This document shows, in pieces, positions 1 through 8,209 of a stretch of DNA of 8,209 nucleotides. The DNA is from Cyanobacteria bacterium K_DeepCast_35m_m2_023 (GTDB lineage Bacteria > Cyanobacteriota > Cyanobacteriia > PCC-6307 > Cyanobiaceae). The first letter of the stretch is position 1, and each line of letters opens with the position of its first letter. The notes beneath the pieces are model-generated. The model worked only from the letters and a program-made list of their open reading frames with translations, searched no databases and was not told where the DNA came from. Location: NCBI GenBank assembly GCA_016882345.1, contig VGQR01000069.1, positions 1 to 8,209 on the forward strand. Reading direction: 5' to 3'. Both the position numbers and the translations under genes were made by a program.

Positions 1-975
1 TGTCTGATTGGGCTGGGCACGGTGATCCTCTACAGCTTCGGTTTCAGCGACATCGAGAACCGGGGCGCACGGCTATGGGCTGCCCTGTTTCACTGCATCA
101 GCGCTTACAACAACGCTGGCTTTGGCCTTTGGGCCGACAACCTGGTGGGCTATCAGTTCAACCCTGTGGTCTGTGGGGTGATCGGCAGCCTGATCGTGAT
201 GGGGGGCATCGGCTGGCGGGTCACCAATGACGTGCTGCAGTACCGGTTGCAGGTCAAGCGCCTGCGCAACCTGAGCCTGCACACGCGCCTGGTGCTGCGC
301 AGCACGATTCTGCTGATCGTGATTGGCATGGTGGGGTTGCTGTTCACCGAACAGTTCGCCCCAGACGGTGTGGTGCAGAAGCTGGCTCTGGTCGAACGCC
401 TCCAGGTCACCCTGTTCCAATCGATCACCACCCGCACGGCCGGCTTTAACACCGTGCCCCTGTCGATCGAAACGATTTCAGATGCGGGACTGTTGCTGAT
501 GATCCTGCTGATGTTCATCGGCGCCAGCCCCGGCGGCACTGGCGGCGGCATCAAGACGACCACCTTTGCCGTGCTGGTGGGCGCGACCCGCTCGACGCTG
601 CAGAACCGCGATGGAGTCGTGATCCGCAACCGCCAGATCCCGGCTTCGGTGGTGCTCAAAGCCGTCGGCACGGCCCTGGCCTCGGCTGGTTTTGTGGTGC
701 TGATGACCCTGCTGCTGGGCATCGGCGAAACGATCGGCGGCAAGAGCGCCGGGGCCGGCTTCAGCTTTCTGGAGAACCTGTTCACCTGCATGTCGGCCTT
801 CGGCACCGTCGGCCTCGACGTTGGCGTGACAGCCAACCTGGGGCGCCTGGGGCAGCTGGTGCTGATGGTCTGCATGTTTGTGGGCCGGCTCGGAATCCTG
901 CTGGTGCTCTCAGCGCTGTACGGCAATCGGCCCGGTTCCCGGGTGGGCTACCCGCGCGAAGAGGTATACCTCTGA
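1..975 (+). CDS. ktrB: KtrB/TrkH-family potassium uptake channel subunit, 5' end outside window
   Basis: Membrane subunit of a Ktr/Trk K+ (often Na+-dependent) uptake system, normally gated by a cytosolic RCK protein (KtrA/TrkA). The reading frame is open from base 1, so the start lies upstream; 324 residues are visible. Filter-loop signatures of the superfamily are seen: NAGFG at residues 38-42, TTRTAGF at 143-149 and SAFGTVG at 265-271. SPGGTGGGIKTTT at 175-187 matches the flexible gating loop known from KtrB, and the conserved Arg of the last helix (FVGRLG) is at about 296. The C-terminus (PREEVYL) is short and ordinary for KtrB. The next gene is not ktrA but an SLC13 carrier 61 bp downstream on the same strand, so any KtrA partner must be upstream or elsewhere. 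The family is certain; the choice of KtrB over TrkH/TrkG rests on the compact form and cyanobacterial context. Confidence 0.92.
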   Translation, partial: CLIGLGTVILYSFGFSDIENRGARLWAALFHCISAYNNAGFGLWADNLVGYQFNPVVCGVIGSLIVMGGIGWRVTNDVLQYRLQVKRLRNLSLHTRLVLRSTILLIVIGMVGLLFTEQFAPDGVVQKLALVERLQVTLFQSITTRTAGFNTVPLSIETISDAGLLLMILLMFIGASPGGTGGGIKTTTFAVLVGATRSTLQNRDGVVIRNRQIPASVVLKAVGTALASAGFVVLMTLLLGIGETIGGKSAGAGFSFLENLFTCMSAFGTVGLDVGVTANLGRLGQLVLMVCMFVGRLGILLVLSALYGNRPGSRVGYPREEVYL

Positions 976-1036: not shown

Positions 1037-2971
1037 ATGCAAGACCTTCTCCTCGCGATCACCCCCAGCGGTTGGATCACCCTGCTGGTGCTGAGCGGCT
1101 CGATCGTGCTGTTCGTGGGGGGCTGGCTGGCACCCGAAGTGACAGGCCTGCTGGCGGCAGCCCTGCTGATCGTCACCGGGGTGCTCAAACCCTCCGAGGC
1201 CGTCGAGGGGTTCGGCAGCACCACCTTGGTCACGCTGATGGGTCTGTTCGCCCTCTCGGCAGGGCTGTTTCGCTCGGGCGCCCTCGATCGGCTGCGGGGG
1301 CTGATGGGCTCCGATGCGATCCGCAGCCCCAAGCGCATGATCGGCCTGATGGCCGCGGTGGTGGGCCCGGTGTCGGCCTTCGTGCCCAACACTCCGATCG
1401 TGGCCGCCCTGTTGCCGGTGGTCGAAGGCTGGTGTCAGCGCCGCGGCATCGCCCCCTCGAAGGTGCTGCTGCCGCTCTCGTTTGCCACGGTGCTGGGCCC
1501 GGTGTCGGCTTTCGTGCCCAACACTCCGATCGTGGCCGCCCTGTTGCCGGTGGTCGAAGGCTGGTGTCAGCGCCGCGGCATCGCCCCCTCGAAGGTGCTG
1601 CTGCCGCTCTCGTTTGCCACGGTGCTGGGGGGCACCATGACCTTGCTGGGCAGCTCGGTCAACCTGCTGGCCAGCGAGGTCAGCGGCAAGCTGGGCTACG
1701 GCGCCTTTGGCCTGTTCAGCTTCACCCCGATCGGCCTGGGGGTGTGGCTGGTGGGCGGCGTGGTGATGGTGCTGCTGGCGGATCGATTTCTCCCCGATCG
1801 CGGCTGCAATTATGACGACCTGACCGCCGATTTGGCGAGCAGCGGTTACCTCACCGAGGTGCGTATCCCGCCCGGCTCGCAACTGATCGGCCAGTCGCTG
1901 CATGGCAGCCGCCTGCAGCGACGCTTTGATGTTGATGTGCTCGAACTGCACAGGGGCGAGGAACGCTTTTTGCCGCCGTTGGCCGACCGCACCTTGATGC
2001 TGGGCGATCGCCTGCTGCTGCGTTGCAGCCGCGAAGATCTGCTGCGCCTGCAACAGGATCACACCATCGACCTGGCGCCGCTGCCAGAGAGCGAAACCCG
2101 TGGCGATCAGCAGAACAACCAGCGCACCGTCGAGGTGCTGCTGCCGGCAGGCTCGACCCTGGCGGGCGATTGCCTGCGCGACCTGCGCTTTCGGCAGCGC
2201 TACAACGTGACAGTGCTGGCCCTGCGCCGCGGCAACGCCGTGCTGCGCGAGCGCCTGGGCCGGGCCCAGCTGCGCGAGGGTGACGTGCTGCTGCTGCAGG
2301 GCCCCAAGGATGCGATCCGCGGGCTGCAGGCCAACAACGACCTGGTGGTGCTCGAGCAGCTCGAAAAAGACCTGCCCACCGTCAGCCGCAAACGGTTCGC
2401 GCTGGTGATCGCCGTGCTGGTGATCGTGCTGCCCAGCTTTGAGCTGATCCCGCTGGTGGCTTCGGTGTTGCTGGGCACAGTGGCGATGGTGGCCACAGGC
2501 TGCCTCAGGCCCGGCGAACTGCAGCGGGCCATCCGACTCGATGTGATCCTGCTGCTGGGTTCGCTGGCCAGCTTCAGCGTGGCGCTCGAAAAAACGGGTC
2601 TGGCAACTGCCCTGGCCCAGGGTCTGCTGAAGGGTCTCGCCAGCTGGCCTCTCTACGGGGCGCTGCTGGTGGTGTTTCTGTTCACCACCTTGCTCACCGA
2701 AGTGATGAGCAACGCCGCCACGGTGGCGATGTTGATTCCCATCGCCGGCCAGCTGGCCATCGGCCTCGATCAACCACCCCTGGCGTTCATCTATGCCGTG
2801 CTGTTTGGCGCCAGCCAGAGTTTTCTCAGCCCAGTGGGCTATCAAACCAATTTGATGGTGTTCGGACCTGGCCGTTACCGCTTTTTGGATGTGGCCCGCT
2901 ATGGCGTGCCGTTGACCTTCACCATGACCCTGGTGGTCCCTTGGCTGATCTGCCGTCAGTTCGGGCTCTGA
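1037..2971 (+). CDS. SLC13/DASS-family Na+-coupled anion carrier with two internal RCK_C (TrkA_C) domains and an internal 44-residue duplication
   Basis: Inner-membrane carrier of the ArsB/NhaD-SLC13 superfamily, of the subgroup with regulatory RCK_C domains in the central cytosolic loop (as in Synechocystis sll0640, annotated as a sodium/sulfate symporter). The N-terminal membrane half covers about residues 1-260 and the RCK_C domains about 272-345 and 363-445. The C-terminal membrane half covers about 455-644, with the second substrate-site hairpin TEVMSNAATVAM from 554 and SPVGYQTNLM from 598. Residues 110-153 and 154-197 are identical, so the first hairpin region with its FVPNTPIVAALLP motif occurs twice. 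Without the insert the protein would be 600 aa, close to the family norm. ATG 1037 gives the expected N-terminus, but the ribosome site is weak. Substrate (sulfate, dicarboxylate or other anion) cannot be told from sequence. Whether the duplicated form still folds and transports is doubtful. Confidence 0.9.
   Translation: MQDLLLAITPSGWITLLVLSGSIVLFVGGWLAPEVTGLLAAALLIVTGVLKPSEAVEGFGSTTLVTLMGLFALSAGLFRSGALDRLRGLMGSDAIRSPKRMIGLMAAVVGPVSAFVPNTPIVAALLPVVEGWCQRRGIAPSKVLLPLSFATVLGPVSAFVPNTPIVAALLPVVEGWCQRRGIAPSKVLLPLSFATVLGGTMTLLGSSVNLLASEVSGKLGYGAFGLFSFTPIGLGVWLVGGVVMVLLADRFLPDRGCNYDDLTADLASSGYLTEVRIPPGSQLIGQSLHGSRLQRRFDVDVLELHRGEERFLPPLADRTLMLGDRLLLRCSREDLLRLQQDHTIDLAPLPESETRGDQQNNQRTVEVLLPAGSTLAGDCLRDLRFRQRYNVTVLALRRGNAVLRERLGRAQLREGDVLLLQGPKDAIRGLQANNDLVVLEQLEKDLPTVSRKRFALVIAVLVIVLPSFELIPLVASVLLGTVAMVATGCLRPGELQRAIRLDVILLLGSLASFSVALEKTGLATALAQGLLKGLASWPLYGALLVVFLFTTLLTEVMSNAATVAMLIPIAGQLAIGLDQPPLAFIYAVLFGASQSFLSPVGYQTNLMVFGPGRYRFLDVARYGVPLTFTMTLVVPWLICRQFGL
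1362..1625 (+). repeat. In-frame 132-bp tandem duplication (two copies) inside the SLC13 gene
   Basis: Copy 1 is 1362-1493 and copy 2 is 1494-1625, with a period of exactly 132 bp (44 codons). Identity extends a few bases past the right edge, to 1497/1629. The only difference I see within the unit is C1378 versus T1510, a silent change in an Ala codon. Each copy encodes residues running from GPVSAFVPNTP to SFATVL. The short shared string GGTG-TGGG at both unit ends could have mediated slippage or unequal recombination. Confidence 0.97.
2004..2011. repeat. HIP1 octamer (GCGATCGC)
   Basis: Perfect GCGATCGC, extended to GGCGATCGCC at 2003-2012. This is the highly iterated palindrome characteristic of many cyanobacterial genomes. 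It lies inside the SLC13 coding sequence, in the first RCK_C domain. I see only this one perfect copy in the window, so it supports but does not prove cyanobacterial origin. Confidence 0.6.
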
Positions 2972-4035
2972 GCGCGATTGGCGCGGCGCCAGCTCAGCAC
3001 CTCCCAGGCCAGGAAGACCATCACCAGCGGCAGACCAACGAGCAGCACAATCACGCGGAAATTGAGCAGTGGACCGCCGCCGCCAGTCACGTCGAGCAAC
3101 TGATCGCCGAGATACAGCACATAGAGGGCGACCAGCAGAAAGCCTTCCCCACGCCGAATCACCCCGCCACTCCAGAAGATGGGCAGACAGGCCACGGTGG
3201 TGGCGATCATGATCGGCAGATCTCGGTTGATCAGCAGCGGCTCTGCTGCCAGACCCTCGCCAGAGAAGGTGGCACAGAGACCCAGAATCAACAATTGGTT
3301 GATGATGTTGCTGCCCACCACGTTGCCCACGGCAATATCAGCCTTGCCGCGATAGGCCGCCACCACCGAGGTGACCAGCTCGGGCATTGAGGTGCCGGCG
3401 GCCACAATCGTGATGCCGACCACCGTTTCAGGAATCTGCAACAGGACAGCGGCGCCCTCGGCACCGCGGACCAACACCTGAGAGCCGAGCACCAACAGCA
3501 CCAGCCCAACGGCCAGCTTGCCTAAAGCGACAGGAATTGTGCTGTTGCCTTCCATGTCGAAATCATCCGACTCGTCGGGATTTTCAGACGCGGTGCGGCT
3601 CTCCCAGACGATGTTGATGACCAGTGCCGTCAGCAGGGCCAGGCCGGCCTGCCAGTAGACCCGGCCGCCAGCCGCCATGCCCCAGACCGCCATCGACACG
3701 GCCAGCAACAGGGGCACGTCGCGTCGCACCAGTCGGCTTTTGACCCGCAGCGGCATCACCAGCGCGCTGAGCCCCAGCACAATCAGGACATTGAAGATAT
3801 TGCTACCAACGATGTTGGTGATGGCGATGCCGTCGTTGCCTTGCACCGTCGAAATCAGACTGACAAACAGCTCAGGAGCGCTGGTCCCAAGCGACACCAG
3901 GGTCAGACCGATGACGATCTGCGGAATGCCCAGCCGCAACGAGATGGCGACCGAGCCCCCCACAAAGAATTCACCACCACCGAACAGCAGCAGAATGCCG
4001 ACGACGATCTCGAGCAGATTGGGCAAAAAGGCCAT
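2956..4035 (-). CDS. CaCA-family Na+/Ca2+ (cation/proton) antiporter, YrbG-like
   Basis: Inner-membrane cation/Ca2+ exchanger of 359 aa, the usual length for bacterial YrbG-type members. Both alpha-repeats are intact: GTSAPELFVS at residues 50-59 with NIVGSNIFN at 74-82, and GTSMPELVTS at 214-223 with GNVVGSNI at 237-244. The acidic residues E55 and E219 of the ion site are present. A hydrophilic, acidic loop (about 145-165, ENPDESDDFD) joins the halves, with about ten hydrophobic helices in all, as in this family. ATG 4035 is the natural start because the first helix follows at once. The 3' end overlaps the SLC13 gene by 16 bp, tail to tail (2956-2971), with no terminator room between them. 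It is probably a single-gene unit transcribed from 4036-4189. Ion specificity (Ca2+ versus other cations, Na+ versus H+) is not decidable from sequence. Confidence 0.93.
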   Translation of the reverse strand: MAFLPNLLEIVVGILLLFGGGEFFVGGSVAISLRLGIPQIVIGLTLVSLGTSAPELFVSLISTVQGNDGIAITNIVGSNIFNVLIVLGLSALVMPLRVKSRLVRRDVPLLLAVSMAVWGMAAGGRVYWQAGLALLTALVINIVWESRTASENPDESDDFDMEGNSTIPVALGKLAVGLVLLVLGSQVLVRGAEGAAVLLQIPETVVGITIVAAGTSMPELVTSVVAAYRGKADIAVGNVVGSNIINQLLILGLCATFSGEGLAAEPLLINRDLPIMIATTVACLPIFWSGGVIRRGEGFLLVALYVLYLGDQLLDVTGGGGPLLNFRVIVLLVGLPLVMVFLAWEVLSWRRANRAQSPN

Positions 4036-4429: not shown

Positions 4430-4540
4430 TAACTGCTAACGCAGCAAAGCAGATTTGCAGCAACCATGGCATCAGTAGGCCAGTCAAATACTGCTCCAAG
4501 CGCAGCAATTCATGCACCAGACCCCATGCCCAGGGCAGCT
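4430..4540. other. Spacer between two leftward small genes
   Basis: A 111-bp region downstream of the small ORF at 4541 and upstream of the RHH gene, presumably carrying the RHH promoter. A TTGACT hexamer reads leftward at 4487-4482, but I find no good -10 partner at proper spacing. Confidence 0.3.
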
Positions 4541-4753
4541 TCAGCGCGAGGCGTAATCCGGATCCAACCAGCAGCGTGGCAATCGCTCTCCCGATGGGAA
4601 ACAGAGCTCCTGCTTGGCAAATGGCTGTGGATCCTGCAGTTCCTCCCCGGCATGAAAGCGACCCTCCACCGAGGTCACAAAAGGATCCATCAGGGCCGGA
4701 AGCTGCAATACCTCCTCCATCAGGCTGCCATCAGGGCAATAGCGCAAAAACAT
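4541..4753 (-). CDS. Small protein of conserved appearance, unknown function
   Basis: 70 aa from ATG 4753; an upstream TTG at 4765 would add four residues. It starts with MFLRYCPDGSLMEE, and its C-terminal part contains ALMDPF, GRFHAGEELQDP, LCFPSGE and LPRCWLDPDY. The balanced mix of acidic, aromatic and Pro/Gly residues is unlike the Arg/His/Gln-rich shadow translations common in this DNA. It reads like a cyanobacterial conserved hypothetical protein, though I cannot name the family. No signal peptide or membrane segment is seen. The opposite strand in this interval gives only low-complexity shadow ORFs. The same frame stays open upstream to 4912 apart from a single TGA at 4783-4781, so this could be the 3' part of a longer, interrupted gene. 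Confidence 0.55.
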   Translation of the reverse strand: MFLRYCPDGSLMEEVLQLPALMDPFVTSVEGRFHAGEELQDPQPFAKQELCFPSGERLPRCWLDPDYASR

Positions 4754-4912
4754 GGTGCCAAACAAGCGGCAACAGAACCGTCACGTTCGCATTGCCAGCA
4801 GCGCCATCCATGGCTTGCAGCAGCTCCGCAGTCCATGGGCCGCAAGCTGCAACACAGCGACCGCATCGGCCGGCCAAGCCTCAGGAATCACTACAACCAG
4901 CTGGCATTCCAT
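4541..4912 (-). pseudogene. Possible longer gene with in-frame TGA (alternative reading of the small ORF)
   Basis: ATG 4912 opens a frame starting MECQLVVVIPEAWPADAVAV that runs 43 codons to TGA (4783-4781). It then continues in the same frame through RFCCRLFGTMFLRY and the small ORF to the stop at 4541. If the TGA were sense, the product would be about 123 aa. A single substitution (CGA or TGG to TGA) could have produced the stop. The upstream part has protein-like composition, including a hydrophobic strand LVVVIP. This may be a recently broken gene, a frame kept open by chance, or two separate ORFs. I favour the first only weakly. Confidence 0.33.
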
Positions 4913-4924
4913 CAAGCACTGTCC

Positions 4925-5464
4925 ATGCGATCCATGCTGTCCATTGGGTCCCGCCCCATCTCACCTGATCGCCTCGGAGCAGCGCTGCTGATACCCGTTC
5001 TCTTGGGTGGCTCTTGCTCTGTTGCCGCGGCCCAGGTCGGCCCCAACCAGGGAGTCAACTTCGGTCAGGCCCTGATCAACAATTCCTGCACGCTCACCAC
5101 CAGCGATGGCTCAATCGGCGTGCGCACCAACCGGGGGCTGATCACCTCCGACAGTGCCAAAGGCGGAAGCTTTAACGGCACCCTGGCGGCGGCCACGATT
5201 TCGGCGTCCAGCAACCTGACCAGCACCGGCTTTGTCAGGGTCGACAACCCCACCCTGACTGGCACGACGGCGGCCACCAGCTCCCAGGTCAAGGTTGGTG
5301 GCGGCACCACCTGGGCATCCAGCGCCCAGGCGAATCTGGGCGCCGATGGGACCCTGGGCGCCACGCCGCTGCACGTGCGCTTCAGCACCACCGCCAACAA
5401 CAACCGCTTCGCGAATGGCACCTACACCGCCAGCGCCACGGTGAGCTGCTTCGACGGCCTCTGA
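4925..5464 (+). CDS. Exported Cys-paired beta-rich protein, possible surface or pilin-like subunit
   Basis: 179 aa from ATG 4925; ATG 4934 (176 aa) is equally plausible, and neither has a clear ribosome site. A Sec signal peptide is seen: basic/polar residues 1-17, hydrophobic core LGAALLIPVLLGGS, and cleavage near AAA-Q at about 36-37. The mature part is rich in Thr/Ser/Ala/Gly/Asn with alternating strand patterns, such as TISASSNLTSTGFVRVDN and LHVRFSTTANNN, and ends in TYTASATVSCFDGL. Two mature-part cysteines, C55 and C175, bracket the domain and could form a disulfide. The pattern recalls secreted beta-sandwich subunits (spore-coat-U/fimbrillin type), but I cannot assign a family. Its stop codon shares one base with the start of the chaperone-like gene (TGATG at 5462-5466), so the two are probably translationally coupled. 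The open frame upstream to 4466 is rejected as non-protein-like. Confidence 0.75.
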   Translation: MRSMLSIGSRPISPDRLGAALLIPVLLGGSCSVAAAQVGPNQGVNFGQALINNSCTLTTSDGSIGVRTNRGLITSDSAKGGSFNGTLAAATISASSNLTSTGFVRVDNPTLTGTTAATSSQVKVGGGTTWASSAQANLGADGTLGATPLHVRFSTTANNNRFANGTYTASATVSCFDGL

Positions 5465-5895
5465 TGCGACCTGAGCCGACCCTGGCGAGGCTCGGGCTGG
5501 GGCTGCTCGCTCTGACGAGCGGGCCAGCCCTGGCCTTCAGCCAGGCCCCCTTGACCCTCGCCGAACGCAAGGGCTACGTGCAGCTCAGCAACCCCGGCGA
5601 GCGCAACATTCAGCTCAATCTGCAGGTCTTTCCGGTGGTGCAGCAGCAGGGACGCGCCAGCGCCGCCCTCACCCCGCTGTCACCCGAGGAGGCCGAACTG
5701 CTGATCCGGCTGCGGCCGACCCGGTTCCGCCTGGGTCCGGGCAGCAGCCGCACCCTTCCGTACACCGTTCTCAACCCCAGCCGCGATTTCTTTTTATGTG
5801 GCGTCTCGCTCCAGGGACTGTTCACCGTGCGGGTCTGTTCGCGCTGGCGGGCGCAGCGATTGCCGCCAGCGGCCTCGCCGGCCCTGCCGCTCTAG
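5464..5895 (+). CDS. Exported single-domain protein resembling the N-terminal domain of PapD-type pilus chaperones
   Basis: 143 aa. The signal peptide covers residues 1-24 (hydrophobic LGLGLLALTSGPALA, cleavage near ALA-FS). The mature part follows the N-terminal immunoglobulin-like domain of periplasmic fimbrial chaperones: GYVQLSNPGERNIQLNLQV (37-55) matches the strand with the conserved N-P-G turn. ALTPLSPEEAELLIRLRPTRFRLGPGSSRTLPYTV matches the typical P-x-x-F-x-L-x-P-G-x-x-Q/R-x-hydrophobic stretch. The second chaperone domain is absent, and a C112/C125 pair is present. The last 33 codons overlap the start of the next gene by 100 bp. No usher gene lies nearby. A role in folding or delivering the product of the preceding gene is inferred from one-base coupling and gene order. 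The similarity is clear in pattern but unverified by search. Confidence 0.72.
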   Translation: MRPEPTLARLGLGLLALTSGPALAFSQAPLTLAERKGYVQLSNPGERNIQLNLQVFPVVQQQGRASAALTPLSPEEAELLIRLRPTRFRLGPGSSRTLPYTVLNPSRDFFLCGVSLQGLFTVRVCSRWRAQRLPPAASPALPL

Positions 5896-6401
5896 CCCAG
5901 ATTTACCTGGCCCCCACCCAGCAGTTTCCCCAGGGATCCCGAGTCTCGATCGACCTGGGTGGGCTGCGCTGCAATGCCGATGGTGGTGCCCTGCTCAGCC
6001 CCTCGCTCTCGGCCGGGGCCTACCCCGACCAATGGGGCAACACCGTCACTGTGGCTCCGAACGCCAACAACACGGCGATCGGCAGCCAGAGCAGCCTGCT
6101 GGCCCTGGTCACCCTCAACATTCCCCTGGCCCGCAGCCAGAGCGGCTTCCACTGCCAGACCCTGCTCAAGGATGCCCAGATCAAGGCCCGCATCGACAAC
6201 CTGCGGCAGCTGGTCGAAGAGAACGTGATCAGCGAAAGCCAGTACCAACAAGCGTTGCGGTCCCTGTTTGCTCCCGAGCTGGCCGGCCACGTCCCAGCTG
6301 CAGCGGGCCCAGCGCCGGGAGCGCGTCTGCAGATCCCTTCAACGGGCATGAACGATGGGGATCTGGGCCAGGCAGGTGGTGGCGGCCCGCGACAACCGTG
6401 A
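5796..6401 (+). CDS. Exported protein of unknown function with a SHOCT-like C-terminal helix pair
   Basis: 201 aa from ATG 5796, the only good in-frame start that preserves the signal peptide (hydrophobic GLFALAGAAIAASGLAG, cleavage near ALA-Q at 34-35). The mature N-half (IYLAPTQQFPQGSRVSIDLGGLRCN and on) is strand-rich with a cysteine pair, C59 and C120. Residues 130-158 (KARIDNLRQLVEENVISESQ and following) match the pattern of a SHOCT-type short helical domain: I-x-x-L-x-x-L, a turn with I/S-E, then a second helix. The tail is Pro/Gly/Ala-rich. The first 100 bp overlap the chaperone-like gene in another frame; the last 63 bp (6339-6401) are antisense to the conserved end of umuC. It probably belongs to one operon with the two preceding genes. 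No family name can be given. Confidence 0.72.
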   Translation: MWRLAPGTVHRAGLFALAGAAIAASGLAGPAALAQIYLAPTQQFPQGSRVSIDLGGLRCNADGGALLSPSLSAGAYPDQWGNTVTVAPNANNTAIGSQSSLLALVTLNIPLARSQSGFHCQTLLKDAQIKARIDNLRQLVEENVISESQYQQALRSLFAPELAGHVPAAAGPAPGARLQIPSTGMNDGDLGQAGGGGPRQP

Positions 6402-7619
6402 CCGGCGCATGGCCCAGGCGGGCCGCAGGCCACAGGCAGCCCACTGCACCGCGCCGCGGCCATAACGGCGATTGAGTCCATCGATCACCGCCATCAGCCG
6501 TTCGCGACGCTGCTGCTGCTCGAGGGTCAGCGGCAGCAGCAGATGGTGCTGCAGCAGATCCTCGCTCTGCAGTTGCTGCATCAGCACGCCAGCCTTCTGC
6601 AACGGCTTGCGCGGCCGAAACAGCTGCTCCGCCAGCGGCAACGCCGCCGCCAGCAACACCCCCGTGTCGTTGCTGGCCAACGGCAGCTGCACCGTGGCGG
6701 AGCGGCTGTACAGGCTGGTGCCATTGAACGGGCTGCTGCGCACAAACACGGTGATCGCCCCGGCCCGCTGGCGCTGCTGACGCAGCTTTTCAGCCGCCCG
6801 CACCAGATAGGTGGCGAGAGCCTCGCGCAGCGCCTCGAGGCTCTCGACCGGCTGGCTGAAGCTGCGGCTGACGCAGGTTTCCTGCTTGGCCGGAGCGATC
6901 GTCACCAGGGGCAGACAGGGCTGGCCGCGCAACTCCTGCTGCAGGCGCAGACCCACCACTCCGCACTTGCGCTGCAGCTCGCCGCTGGGCATGTCGCGCA
7001 GGGCGCGGGCATCGGCCACCCCCCGCAAGCGGCACCAACGGGCCAGGCGGCGACCGATGCCCCAGACGTCCTCGACGGCGATGCTCGCCAGCAGCCCATT
7101 GAGATCGGGTTCGACCGCCAGATCGAGCACCCCGGCACGGGACGGATCGGCCTTGGCCGCCTTGTTGGCGATCTTGGCCAGCACCTTGGAACCGGCGATG
7201 CCCACGGCCACCGGCAGACCCAGATGGCACTGGACCTGCCGGCGCAACGCCCGCCCCCAGGCCGTCAGATCACCGCCCGCCGGCCGGTGCAGCACGCCAA
7301 AGGCCTCGTCGATGGAGTAGATCTCCAGCTCCTCGACCCAGCACTCGAGCGTGGCCATCAGCCGCTGGCTCATGTCGGCGTACAGGGCGTAGTTGGAACT
7401 GCGCACCACCACGCCATGGCGCTCGAGCTGCTGGCGCACCTTGAAATAGGGCATGCCCATGGCGATGCCCAGGGCGCGGGCCTCGGCACTGCGCGAGACG
7501 ATGCAGCCGTCGTTGTTGGAGAGCACCACCAACGGCCGACCCACCAGGGCCGGATCGACCACAGCCTCACAGGAGGCGTAAAAGTTGTTGCCATCGACCA
7601 ACACCGTCGCCAGGGCCAT
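6339..7619 (-). CDS. umuC: DNA polymerase V catalytic subunit UmuC (Y-family translesion polymerase)
   Basis: Error-prone DNA polymerase that copies across lesions, working with UmuD'2 and RecA in SOS mutagenesis. 426 aa, full length compared with about 422 for E. coli UmuC. Catalytic residues are present: D9 in LVDGNNFYASCE and D104/E105 in YSIDEAF. Y14 sits at the steric-gate position, and the finger motif LSNNDGC and the SNYALYADMS stretch are intact. Helix-hairpin-helix DNA-binding sequence (VWGIGRRLARW) and the typical C-terminus (MRRSRLSRAATT to PIVHAR) complete the protein. A canonical clamp-binding QLxLF is not obvious; QHHLLL in the C-terminal region may be a degenerate version. ATG 7619 lies 6 bp after the umuD stop, as in a normal umuDC operon. 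The 3' end overlaps the convergent exported-protein gene by 63 bp. Confidence 0.97.
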   Translation of the reverse strand: MALATVLVDGNNFYASCEAVVDPALVGRPLVVLSNNDGCIVSRSAEARALGIAMGMPYFKVRQQLERHGVVVRSSNYALYADMSQRLMATLECWVEELEIYSIDEAFGVLHRPAGGDLTAWGRALRRQVQCHLGLPVAVGIAGSKVLAKIANKAAKADPSRAGVLDLAVEPDLNGLLASIAVEDVWGIGRRLARWCRLRGVADARALRDMPSGELQRKCGVVGLRLQQELRGQPCLPLVTIAPAKQETCVSRSFSQPVESLEALREALATYLVRAAEKLRQQRQRAGAITVFVRSSPFNGTSLYSRSATVQLPLASNDTGVLLAAALPLAEQLFRPRKPLQKAGVLMQQLQSEDLLQHHLLLPLTLEQQQRRERLMAVIDGLNRRYGRGAVQWAACGLRPAWAMRRSRLSRAATTCLAQIPIVHAR

Positions 7620-7625
7620 GGCGGC

Positions 7626-7934
7626 TCAACAACGGCGGATCACATGGCGCACGACCCCCAGCAGCTGGTGATCGGCGCAGGGATCGAGCGGCAGCAGCGG
7701 ATAGGCCGGATGCGCCGCCTCCAGCCCCAGGCCGCCGCGCCAGTGCACCAGTCGCTTGACCGTGAAGCCATCGCCCAGGCGGGCCACCACCACCTGACCC
7801 GGCCGGGGCTCGAGGCCGCAGTCGACCAACAGCAGATCGCCATGGTCGATGCCAGCCCCCTGCATCGATGGGCCGCTGACCCGCAACAGCAGGGTGCAGC
7901 GCGGATCGCGCACCAACAAAGCTGCCAGATCCAC
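7626..7934 (-). CDS. umuD: UmuD-type S24 peptidase-fold protein, N-terminally short (UmuD'-like)
   Basis: Accessory subunit of DNA polymerase V, LexA-like S24 fold. From GTG 7934 the product is 102 aa. The catalytic dyad is kept: S23 in SGPSM and K60 in GFTVKRL, 37 residues apart exactly as S60/K97 of E. coli UmuD. Further family motifs are VDLAALLV, GAGIDHGDLLLVD, AAHPAYPLLPL and GVVRHVI. The normal N-terminal arm of about 25-40 residues, with the Cys/Ala-Gly self-cleavage site and the FPSPA segment, is missing: upstream translation in this and the other frames shows no such motif. GTG 7934 is the only standard start codon in frame between a possible LexA box and the conserved core, and GGGGGTGG just upstream may serve as the ribosome site. 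An ATG at 8096 opens the same frame but would add a junk-like Arg/Ser-rich extension. The family is certain; the exact start is not. Confidence 0.85.
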   Translation of the reverse strand: MDLAALLVRDPRCTLLLRVSGPSMQGAGIDHGDLLLVDCGLEPRPGQVVVARLGDGFTVKRLVHWRGGLGLEAAHPAYPLLPLDPCADHQLLGVVRHVIRRC

Positions 7935-7962
7935 ACCACCCCCAGCCCAAGAGCTCGAGACT

Positions 7963-7976
7963 AGTGCATTTGAACC
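7963..7976 (-). promoter_or_regulatory. Candidate LexA (SOS) box upstream of umuD
   Basis: The plus strand reads AGTGCATTTGAACC. The cyanobacterial LexA site described for Anabaena (RGTACNNNDGTWCB) is matched at all fixed positions but two on either strand. It lies 29 bp upstream of the proposed umuD GTG. A TTGTCA hexamer (reading leftward, 7994-7989) could be the -35 element, which would place the box between -35 and the start of transcription; the -10 is poor. SOS control of umuDC is the usual case in other bacteria; here it is inferred. Confidence 0.5.
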
Positions 7977-8043
7977 ACTGCGCAGCGCTGACAACCGGCA
8001 GGAGCCGCGGCAGGCTGATCGCGCACCGCAGCCAGCAACACCC

Positions 8044-8209
8044 GTGCCACGCCACCGAAACCGCCAGCACCGCCACTGGATCGCCCTGCTAGCCACAACG
8101 GCGAGCTTGATCGCAACGGCGCCGGGTGCCCAGGCCGAAGCGCCAACCCAGGCCCGCTATCGCTGCAACGGCGGTCTTGACGCCAGCGAGGTGCGGGCAC
8201 TGTTTTTCC
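8044..8209 (+). CDS. Exported protein, 3' end outside window, unknown function
   Basis: 55 complete codons plus one base are visible from a GTG at 8044, the only likely start before the signal peptide. The signal is classical: basic VPRHRNRQHRHW, hydrophobic IALLATTASLIATA, then PGAQA with cleavage before EAPTQ. The mature part begins ARYRCNGGLDASEVRALFF with one cysteine so far. It diverges from umuD, sharing the 7935-8043 intergenic region with the candidate LexA box, so co-regulation is possible but unproven. Too little is visible to assign a family. The RCN string also occurs in the exported protein encoded at 5796-6401, which is too short to mean homology. Confidence 0.6.
   Translation, partial: MPRHRNRQHRHWIALLATTASLIATAPGAQAEAPTQARYRCNGGLDASEVRALFF

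Follow-up and report, generated by a model that had tools for sequence, protein, structure and literature searches.

Microhomology-mediated tandem duplications have been described in fission yeast and other fungi (PMC13207564, available in part), and the accessible part of a study of Escherichia coli reports that deletion between 101-bp tandem repeats is frequent and independent of RecA (PMC8378479). In mutation-accumulation experiments with the same bacterium, a partly available report gives 1 verified tandem duplication in 104 lines (67 + 37; PMC10292909), so such duplications are rare, which counts against the real duplication proposed below. In VcINDY, a carrier of the DASS/SLC13 type, the Na1 site is a clamshell formed by the loop L5ab and the tip of the hairpin HPin, and HPinb is tightly coupled to Na+ binding (PMC9098524, available in part). 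Our literature search found nothing that joins DASS carriers with tandem duplication. Work on RND efflux proteins reportedly uses the term 'intragenic tandem duplication'.

Here we describe a 132-bp in-frame tandem duplication in an SLC13/DASS-like carrier gene of a cyanobacterium, found in a window (that is, the whole stretch of DNA analysed) of 8,209 nt. We put at about even the chance that this is a real, recent and one-off duplication that originated by slippage or template switching, with transport probably lost or weakened and the allele likely to be transient. If real, it would be a clear natural example of a short in-frame duplication at an early stage, its breakpoints lying on a functional seam of the carrier fold. 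The duplication is ordinary in kind and remarkable only for the position of its ends, which appear to coincide with the two halves of a single ion site; the effect of the duplication on wider biology is small, whether it is real or an artefact.

The repeated unit and its gene

The features of the window are as follows, where L004 (Cyanobacteria bacterium REEB417) and L028 (MAG K_DeepCast_35m_m2_155) are syntenic relatives.

1..975, + strand: upstream neighbour, a TrkH-type cation transporter truncated at the start of the window (Pfam TrkH, 157 bits; syntenic in L004 and L028)
1037..2971, + strand: SLC13/DASS-like carrier gene encoding 644 aa that include two TrkA_C stretches (open reading frame and Pfam)
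1352..1365, + strand: left end of the unit, 14 bp of which 12 agree with the right end, the last 4 (TGGG) exactly
1362..1493, + strand: copy 1 of the 132-bp unit (residues 110-153; codon register 1364-1495)
1484..1497, + strand: internal junction of the copies, where the right-end letters run to TGGG and the unit then restarts
1494..1625, + strand: copy 2 of the 132-bp unit (residues 154-197; codon register 1496-1627)
1616..1629, + strand: right end of the unit, at the end of TM5a and just before loop L5ab by homology
2956..4035, − strand: downstream neighbour, a sodium/calcium-exchanger family protein (Pfam Na_Ca_ex, 206.9 bits; syntenic in L004 and L028)

Tandem Repeats Finder reported a single array in the 8,209-nt window (1352-1629; period 132, 2.1 copies, 97% matches, no indels, score 535), and a base-by-base comparison found the head-to-tail copies to be identical at 131 of 132 positions, the sole mismatch (C1378 versus T1510) being silent (codon GCC versus GCT, both Ala). 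Residues 110-153 and 154-197 are the same, with no amino-acid difference, and the reading frame stays open through the duplication (644 codons). Both analyses bear out what the earlier note had read from the letters, namely two adjacent 132-bp copies that differ by one silent base and encode 44 residues twice. Exact runs of at least 4 at an offset of 132, in the region of approximately 1300-1520, span 1356-1360 (5), 1362-1377 (16) and 1379-1497 (119), so that the longest exact run between the copies is 119 bp. As the same program and filter (period 45 to 500, score at least 50) returned no tandem array in 100 related loci (1.08 Mb, some representing the same gene twice), the duplication is far beyond chance.

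The carrier exceeds the curated Pfam cut-offs for both CitMHS (249.9 bits; cut-off 31.9) and Na_sulph_symp (41.1 bits; cut-off 27), and TrkA_C matches it with 87.9 bits in 2 stretches. It falls below the cut-off of the NCBIfam DASS model (TIGR00785; 106.7 bits against 198.6), as does the single-copy homologue P0002 (104.1 bits), which is the nearest protein among the matches listed (93% identical in the shared part); judged by these profiles, the window carrier is a relative of that family and not a strict member. Relatives have approximately 600 aa, against 644 aa here. Pfam and the alignments thus support the earlier identification of an SLC13-like gene in which a segment containing the first hairpin motif is doubled, and whose single-copy homologues are approximately 600 aa long.

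L004 and L028 share the gene order of the window (TrkH, carrier, exchanger, umuC, umuD), and records of Synechococcus, Cyanobium and Vulcanococcus are among the window's best matches, so the source is a cyanobacterium of the Synechococcus/Cyanobium type. The umuC-like and umuD-like genes adjoin each other (6339-8096, − strand) next to the transporter cluster and are arranged as in L004 and L028; the umuC-like gene reaches 364 bits with PRK03609, under the cut-off of 431. Three open reading frames (4466-5464, 5464-5895 and 5796-6401) resemble, by eye, small secreted-protein genes; 5464-5895 and 5796-6401 (+ strand) overlap by 100 bp in different frames, with no Pfam or NCBIfam match in either. 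An antisense open reading frame (782-2845, − strand, 687 aa) spans the carrier; in a sequence of 65% G+C, such a frame is most likely the shadow of the coding one.

Place of the unit in the carrier fold

The AlphaFold model of single-copy P0002 (pLDDT 75.3) matches the DASS fold as represented by VcINDY (6okz_A; E 6.6e-11; TM-score 0.75 by target length). In a phmmer alignment of the two proteins, P117-N118-T119 of P0002 pairs with the SNT motif, and hand mapping on that alignment (with Trp148 as anchor at the tip) places the unit at approximately residues 143-191 of VcINDY. The P0002 model has helices at 98-112, 118-136, 140-155 and 163-174, which we take to be HPina, HPinb, TM5a and TM5b. 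By homology, the doubled 44 residues comprise the tip of the first re-entrant hairpin (HPin, with the PNT motif), HPinb, the cytosolic linker and TM5a, and stop before L5ab. On this mapping, the unit would begin at one half of the Na1 clamshell and end at the other. The extra 44 residues would reach the inner face and come back at the same membrane level; with both unit ends at the clamshell, the remaining chain can stay oriented as before and the downstream half need not invert. The altered topology of the downstream half that the earlier note expected is not supported by such a placement, in which the unit runs from the HPin tip to just before L5ab, at the same membrane level by homology.

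All 69 aligned rows share P161, N162, T163 and P164 (numbered in copy 2). At its first hairpin tip this carrier family reads P-N-T in place of S-N-T, so the site may differ from that of dicarboxylate carriers.

The doubled protein would gain a second HPin tip, HPinb, cytosolic linker and TM5a. The HPin tip and L5ab, which jointly hold Na+ and substrate, would now lie 44 residues further apart, and the duplicate tip would compete; through this separation and competition, transport has probably been lost or weakened. AlphaFold gave the doubled protein a mean pLDDT/pTM of 65.1/0.51, against 75.3/0.64 for P0002. By block, pLDDT was 51-58 against 79-83 in blocks 61-100, and 28-47 against 75-91 in blocks 101-160, where past residue 110 equal numbers do not denote equal positions. 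Against VcINDY chains, the P0002 model had a best listed TM-score (by target length) of 0.76, and the doubled model, which is of low confidence, one of 0.56. Confidence falls around the insert, a fall that is partly built in because copy 1 is a gap in 68 of 68 other rows of the alignment and one gap placement was used. The AlphaFold result fits damage, with that bias.

The window carrier departs from none of the conserved columns (at least 97% conserved, at least 60 letters). Relative-rate counts for the window against P0002 were even with four outgroups (18/14, 15/14, 16/13 and 12/13); other triples leaned to the window (36/14, 38/14 and 45/12, with P0025 as outgroup) or the opposite way (15/27, 16/30 and 24/37), and two (59/1 and 56/2) reflect near-identical pairs only, so that the test, with its mixed triples, is a weak one. 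These counts and columns suggest no decay in the carrier, as would be expected if any damage is very recent; the even rates and open frame would fit a working protein equally well. A long-standing pseudogene was considered and rejected, given the lack of any stop, the conserved columns all being kept and the even rates relative to P0002 (by this weak test).

Distribution, origin and age

We searched for the junction with residues 132-175, which straddle it, among proteins that share short exact words with this query. Of 865 such candidates, 790 gave matches (E ≤0.001), and in the ranked best 120 of 790 the window's own protein scored 143 bits and the second-ranked 71 bits. A scan of 197 proteins for large internal repeats found one in the window protein alone (0 of the 196 others), and residues 110-153 are gaps in 68 of 68 other rows of a 69-row alignment chosen from these proteins. 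Among genomes of the family, 262 of 300 gave a match; the best-match rows, among the matches listed, all start at query residue 149-156, and in five genomes a separate alignment piece covers the first 154 residues, a pattern that points to a single-copy gene. The junction pattern occurred in 0 of 8 related genomes (an expected result and a weak test), and a second sample of the same species was absent from the matches listed. Diverged copies in distant genera, which the earlier note would have taken as evidence against its reading, were searched for among relatives and none was found. The duplication thus appears to be unique so far among the sequences examined.

A fixed internal repeat common to the carrier family is rejected on the same results (0 of 68 aligned homologues, 0 of 196 proteins and the single-copy pattern of the family-genome matches). 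P0121 and P0129 were considered as junction carriers (84% of the junction query aligned at 61-68% identity), yet the scan found no internal repeat in them, and we read their alignments as probable chance extensions. The longer homologues P0055 (641 aa), P0110 (651 aa) and P0085 (621 aa) have N-terminal extensions and one copy of the segment.

The unit is bounded by stretches that match at 12 of 14 positions, with a mismatch immediately before the exact TGGG, and such microhomology at both ends is what characterizes microhomology-mediated tandem duplication. Among 387,287 pairs of 14-mers spaced 60-300 bp apart in the inferred single-copy gene, 46 agree at 12 or more positions, so the match of the ends is uncommon without being unique. 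A join at TGGG within the longer match suits slippage or template switching, and the duplication probably originated by replication slippage or template switching between the two 14-bp stretches 132 bp apart. At the silent site, 15 of 16 rows from related loci (14 distinct genes, as L082 and L085 repeat L002 and L001) have GCC and one (L007) has GCT, and the syntenic relatives have GCC (L004) and GCG (L028). Given the prevalence of GCC in related loci, copy 1 probably retains the older base.

Synonymous divergence between the copies is one change in approximately 38.7 sites (approximately 0.026), whereas that of the carrier gene from its syntenic relatives is 0.58 (L004) and 0.65 (L028), so that the copies differ by approximately 4% of the divergence to the nearest syntenic relatives. 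The corresponding non-synonymous values (0.091 for L004 and 0.084 for L028) suggest ordinary purifying selection over the carrier gene. Unless gene conversion has intervened, the duplication would be much younger than the splits from L004 and L028, on an age estimate that is very rough because it depends on a single difference; these values support the earlier claim of a young duplication.

Rival readings and comparison with known systems

The array could instead have arisen in the library or the assembly, a reading to which we give a minor but substantial share of the probability: where the 14-bp ends match, a chimeric read or a template switch would have created the junction, the assembler would have joined the pieces, and C1378/T1510 would be a SNP that distinguishes two strains. 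The duplication is known from a single contig of 8209 bases, presumably metagenomic, and its junction sits on a short match. A short match also favours template switching in library PCR, and the longest exact run, at 119 bp, is close to the maximum k in common short-read assemblers. A large-k short-read assembler could resolve a run of 119 bp, and a repeat exact over 136 bp would be more prone to collapse; the silent base may thus explain how the repeat came to be assembled, or it may be the strain SNP. Real arrays are rare here (0 of 100 related loci with a comparable one), and in E. coli mutation accumulation short-read calls of tandem duplications, which were mapping calls and not assemblies, comprised 1 true and 7 false (PMC10292909, in its accessible part). 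Against an artefact, an assembler needs junction-spanning reads and a lone chimeric molecule would rarely win, the frame is exactly kept (1 in 3 by chance), and the contig has the same gene order as L004 and L028. The earlier note had also counted the silent difference against an artefact, an argument that does not hold given that a strain SNP in a mixed sample could place C and T in the two copies. If the array is an artefact, it would teach that a silent difference between copies is no proof of a tandem repeat in an assembled contig.

Assuming that the duplication is real, it might be tolerated, which we consider unlikely: HPina, the copy-1 tip and HPinb, and the copy-2 TM5a would occupy their normal places, and the copy-1 TM5a with the copy-2 tip and HPinb would form an extra re-entrant hairpin on the cytosolic linker. 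Such an arrangement is topologically possible, as the unit ends would be the two halves of the Na1 clamshell (PMC9098524, available in part), and the gene has no stop, no frameshift and all of its conserved residues. However, in view of the tight coupling of HPinb to Na+ binding in VcINDY, a second HPinb probably disturbs that binding, the AlphaFold confidence is low (pLDDT 28-47 in blocks 101-160) and no relative examined has kept such a form. That the product works as a DASS-type carrier in which a third re-entrant hairpin has been added at the cytosolic linker is less probable still; if so, it would be a natural snapshot of hairpin gain without topological cost, by a unit that begins and ends at the same ion site. 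We regard as very improbable the phase-variable switch raised by the earlier note, in which loss or gain of one copy would turn the carrier on or off. Losing one of the two copies would restore the usual length, deletion between 101-bp repeats in E. coli is frequent and RecA-independent (PMC8378479, in part) and reversible microhomology-mediated duplications are described in fungi (PMC13207564, in part), but gain would require a rare event and the two directions would be very unequal. The recurrence in relatives that marks a phase-variable locus was also not seen (71 versus 143 bits in the best 120 of 790 matches, 0 of 196 proteins and 0 of 100 loci): the duplication is in no other homologue examined, no other listed protein (best 120 of 790) scores like a junction carrier and the window has no other array. 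Tandem copies can be homogenised, and an old duplication could in that way have been held identical by gene conversion; with the duplication in no relative examined, close or distant, we consider this the most remote of the readings. The real, recent duplication with impaired transport is, in our view, the best explanation, and as tandem repeats of about this size are readily lost in E. coli, the allele is likely to be transient.

The window carrier shares with VcINDY (PDB 4f35; PMC9098524, available in part) the hairpin tip, HPinb, TM5a and L5ab by alignment, and the fold by the model of its single-copy homologue. It differs from DASS/SLC13 carriers such as VcINDY in the TrkA_C stretches inside the chain, in PNT for SNT at the first tip and in the doubling of the unit of tip, HPinb and TM5a. 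With the E. coli system of template-switching repeat instability (PMC8378479, in part) it has repeat size in common (101 bp there, 132 bp here), although that system is an engineered plasmid assay and the present case is known from sequence alone. The microhomology-mediated tandem duplications of fission yeast and other fungi (PMC13207564, in the part available) are likewise two tandem copies of a short coding segment with ends that share a few bases, revertible in principle; by comparison, the present case is a single one, in one contig of a cyanobacterium and read from its letters, has 4 exact bases within a 12/14 match, and is in frame, whereas the ssp1 example of that review leads to a premature stop.
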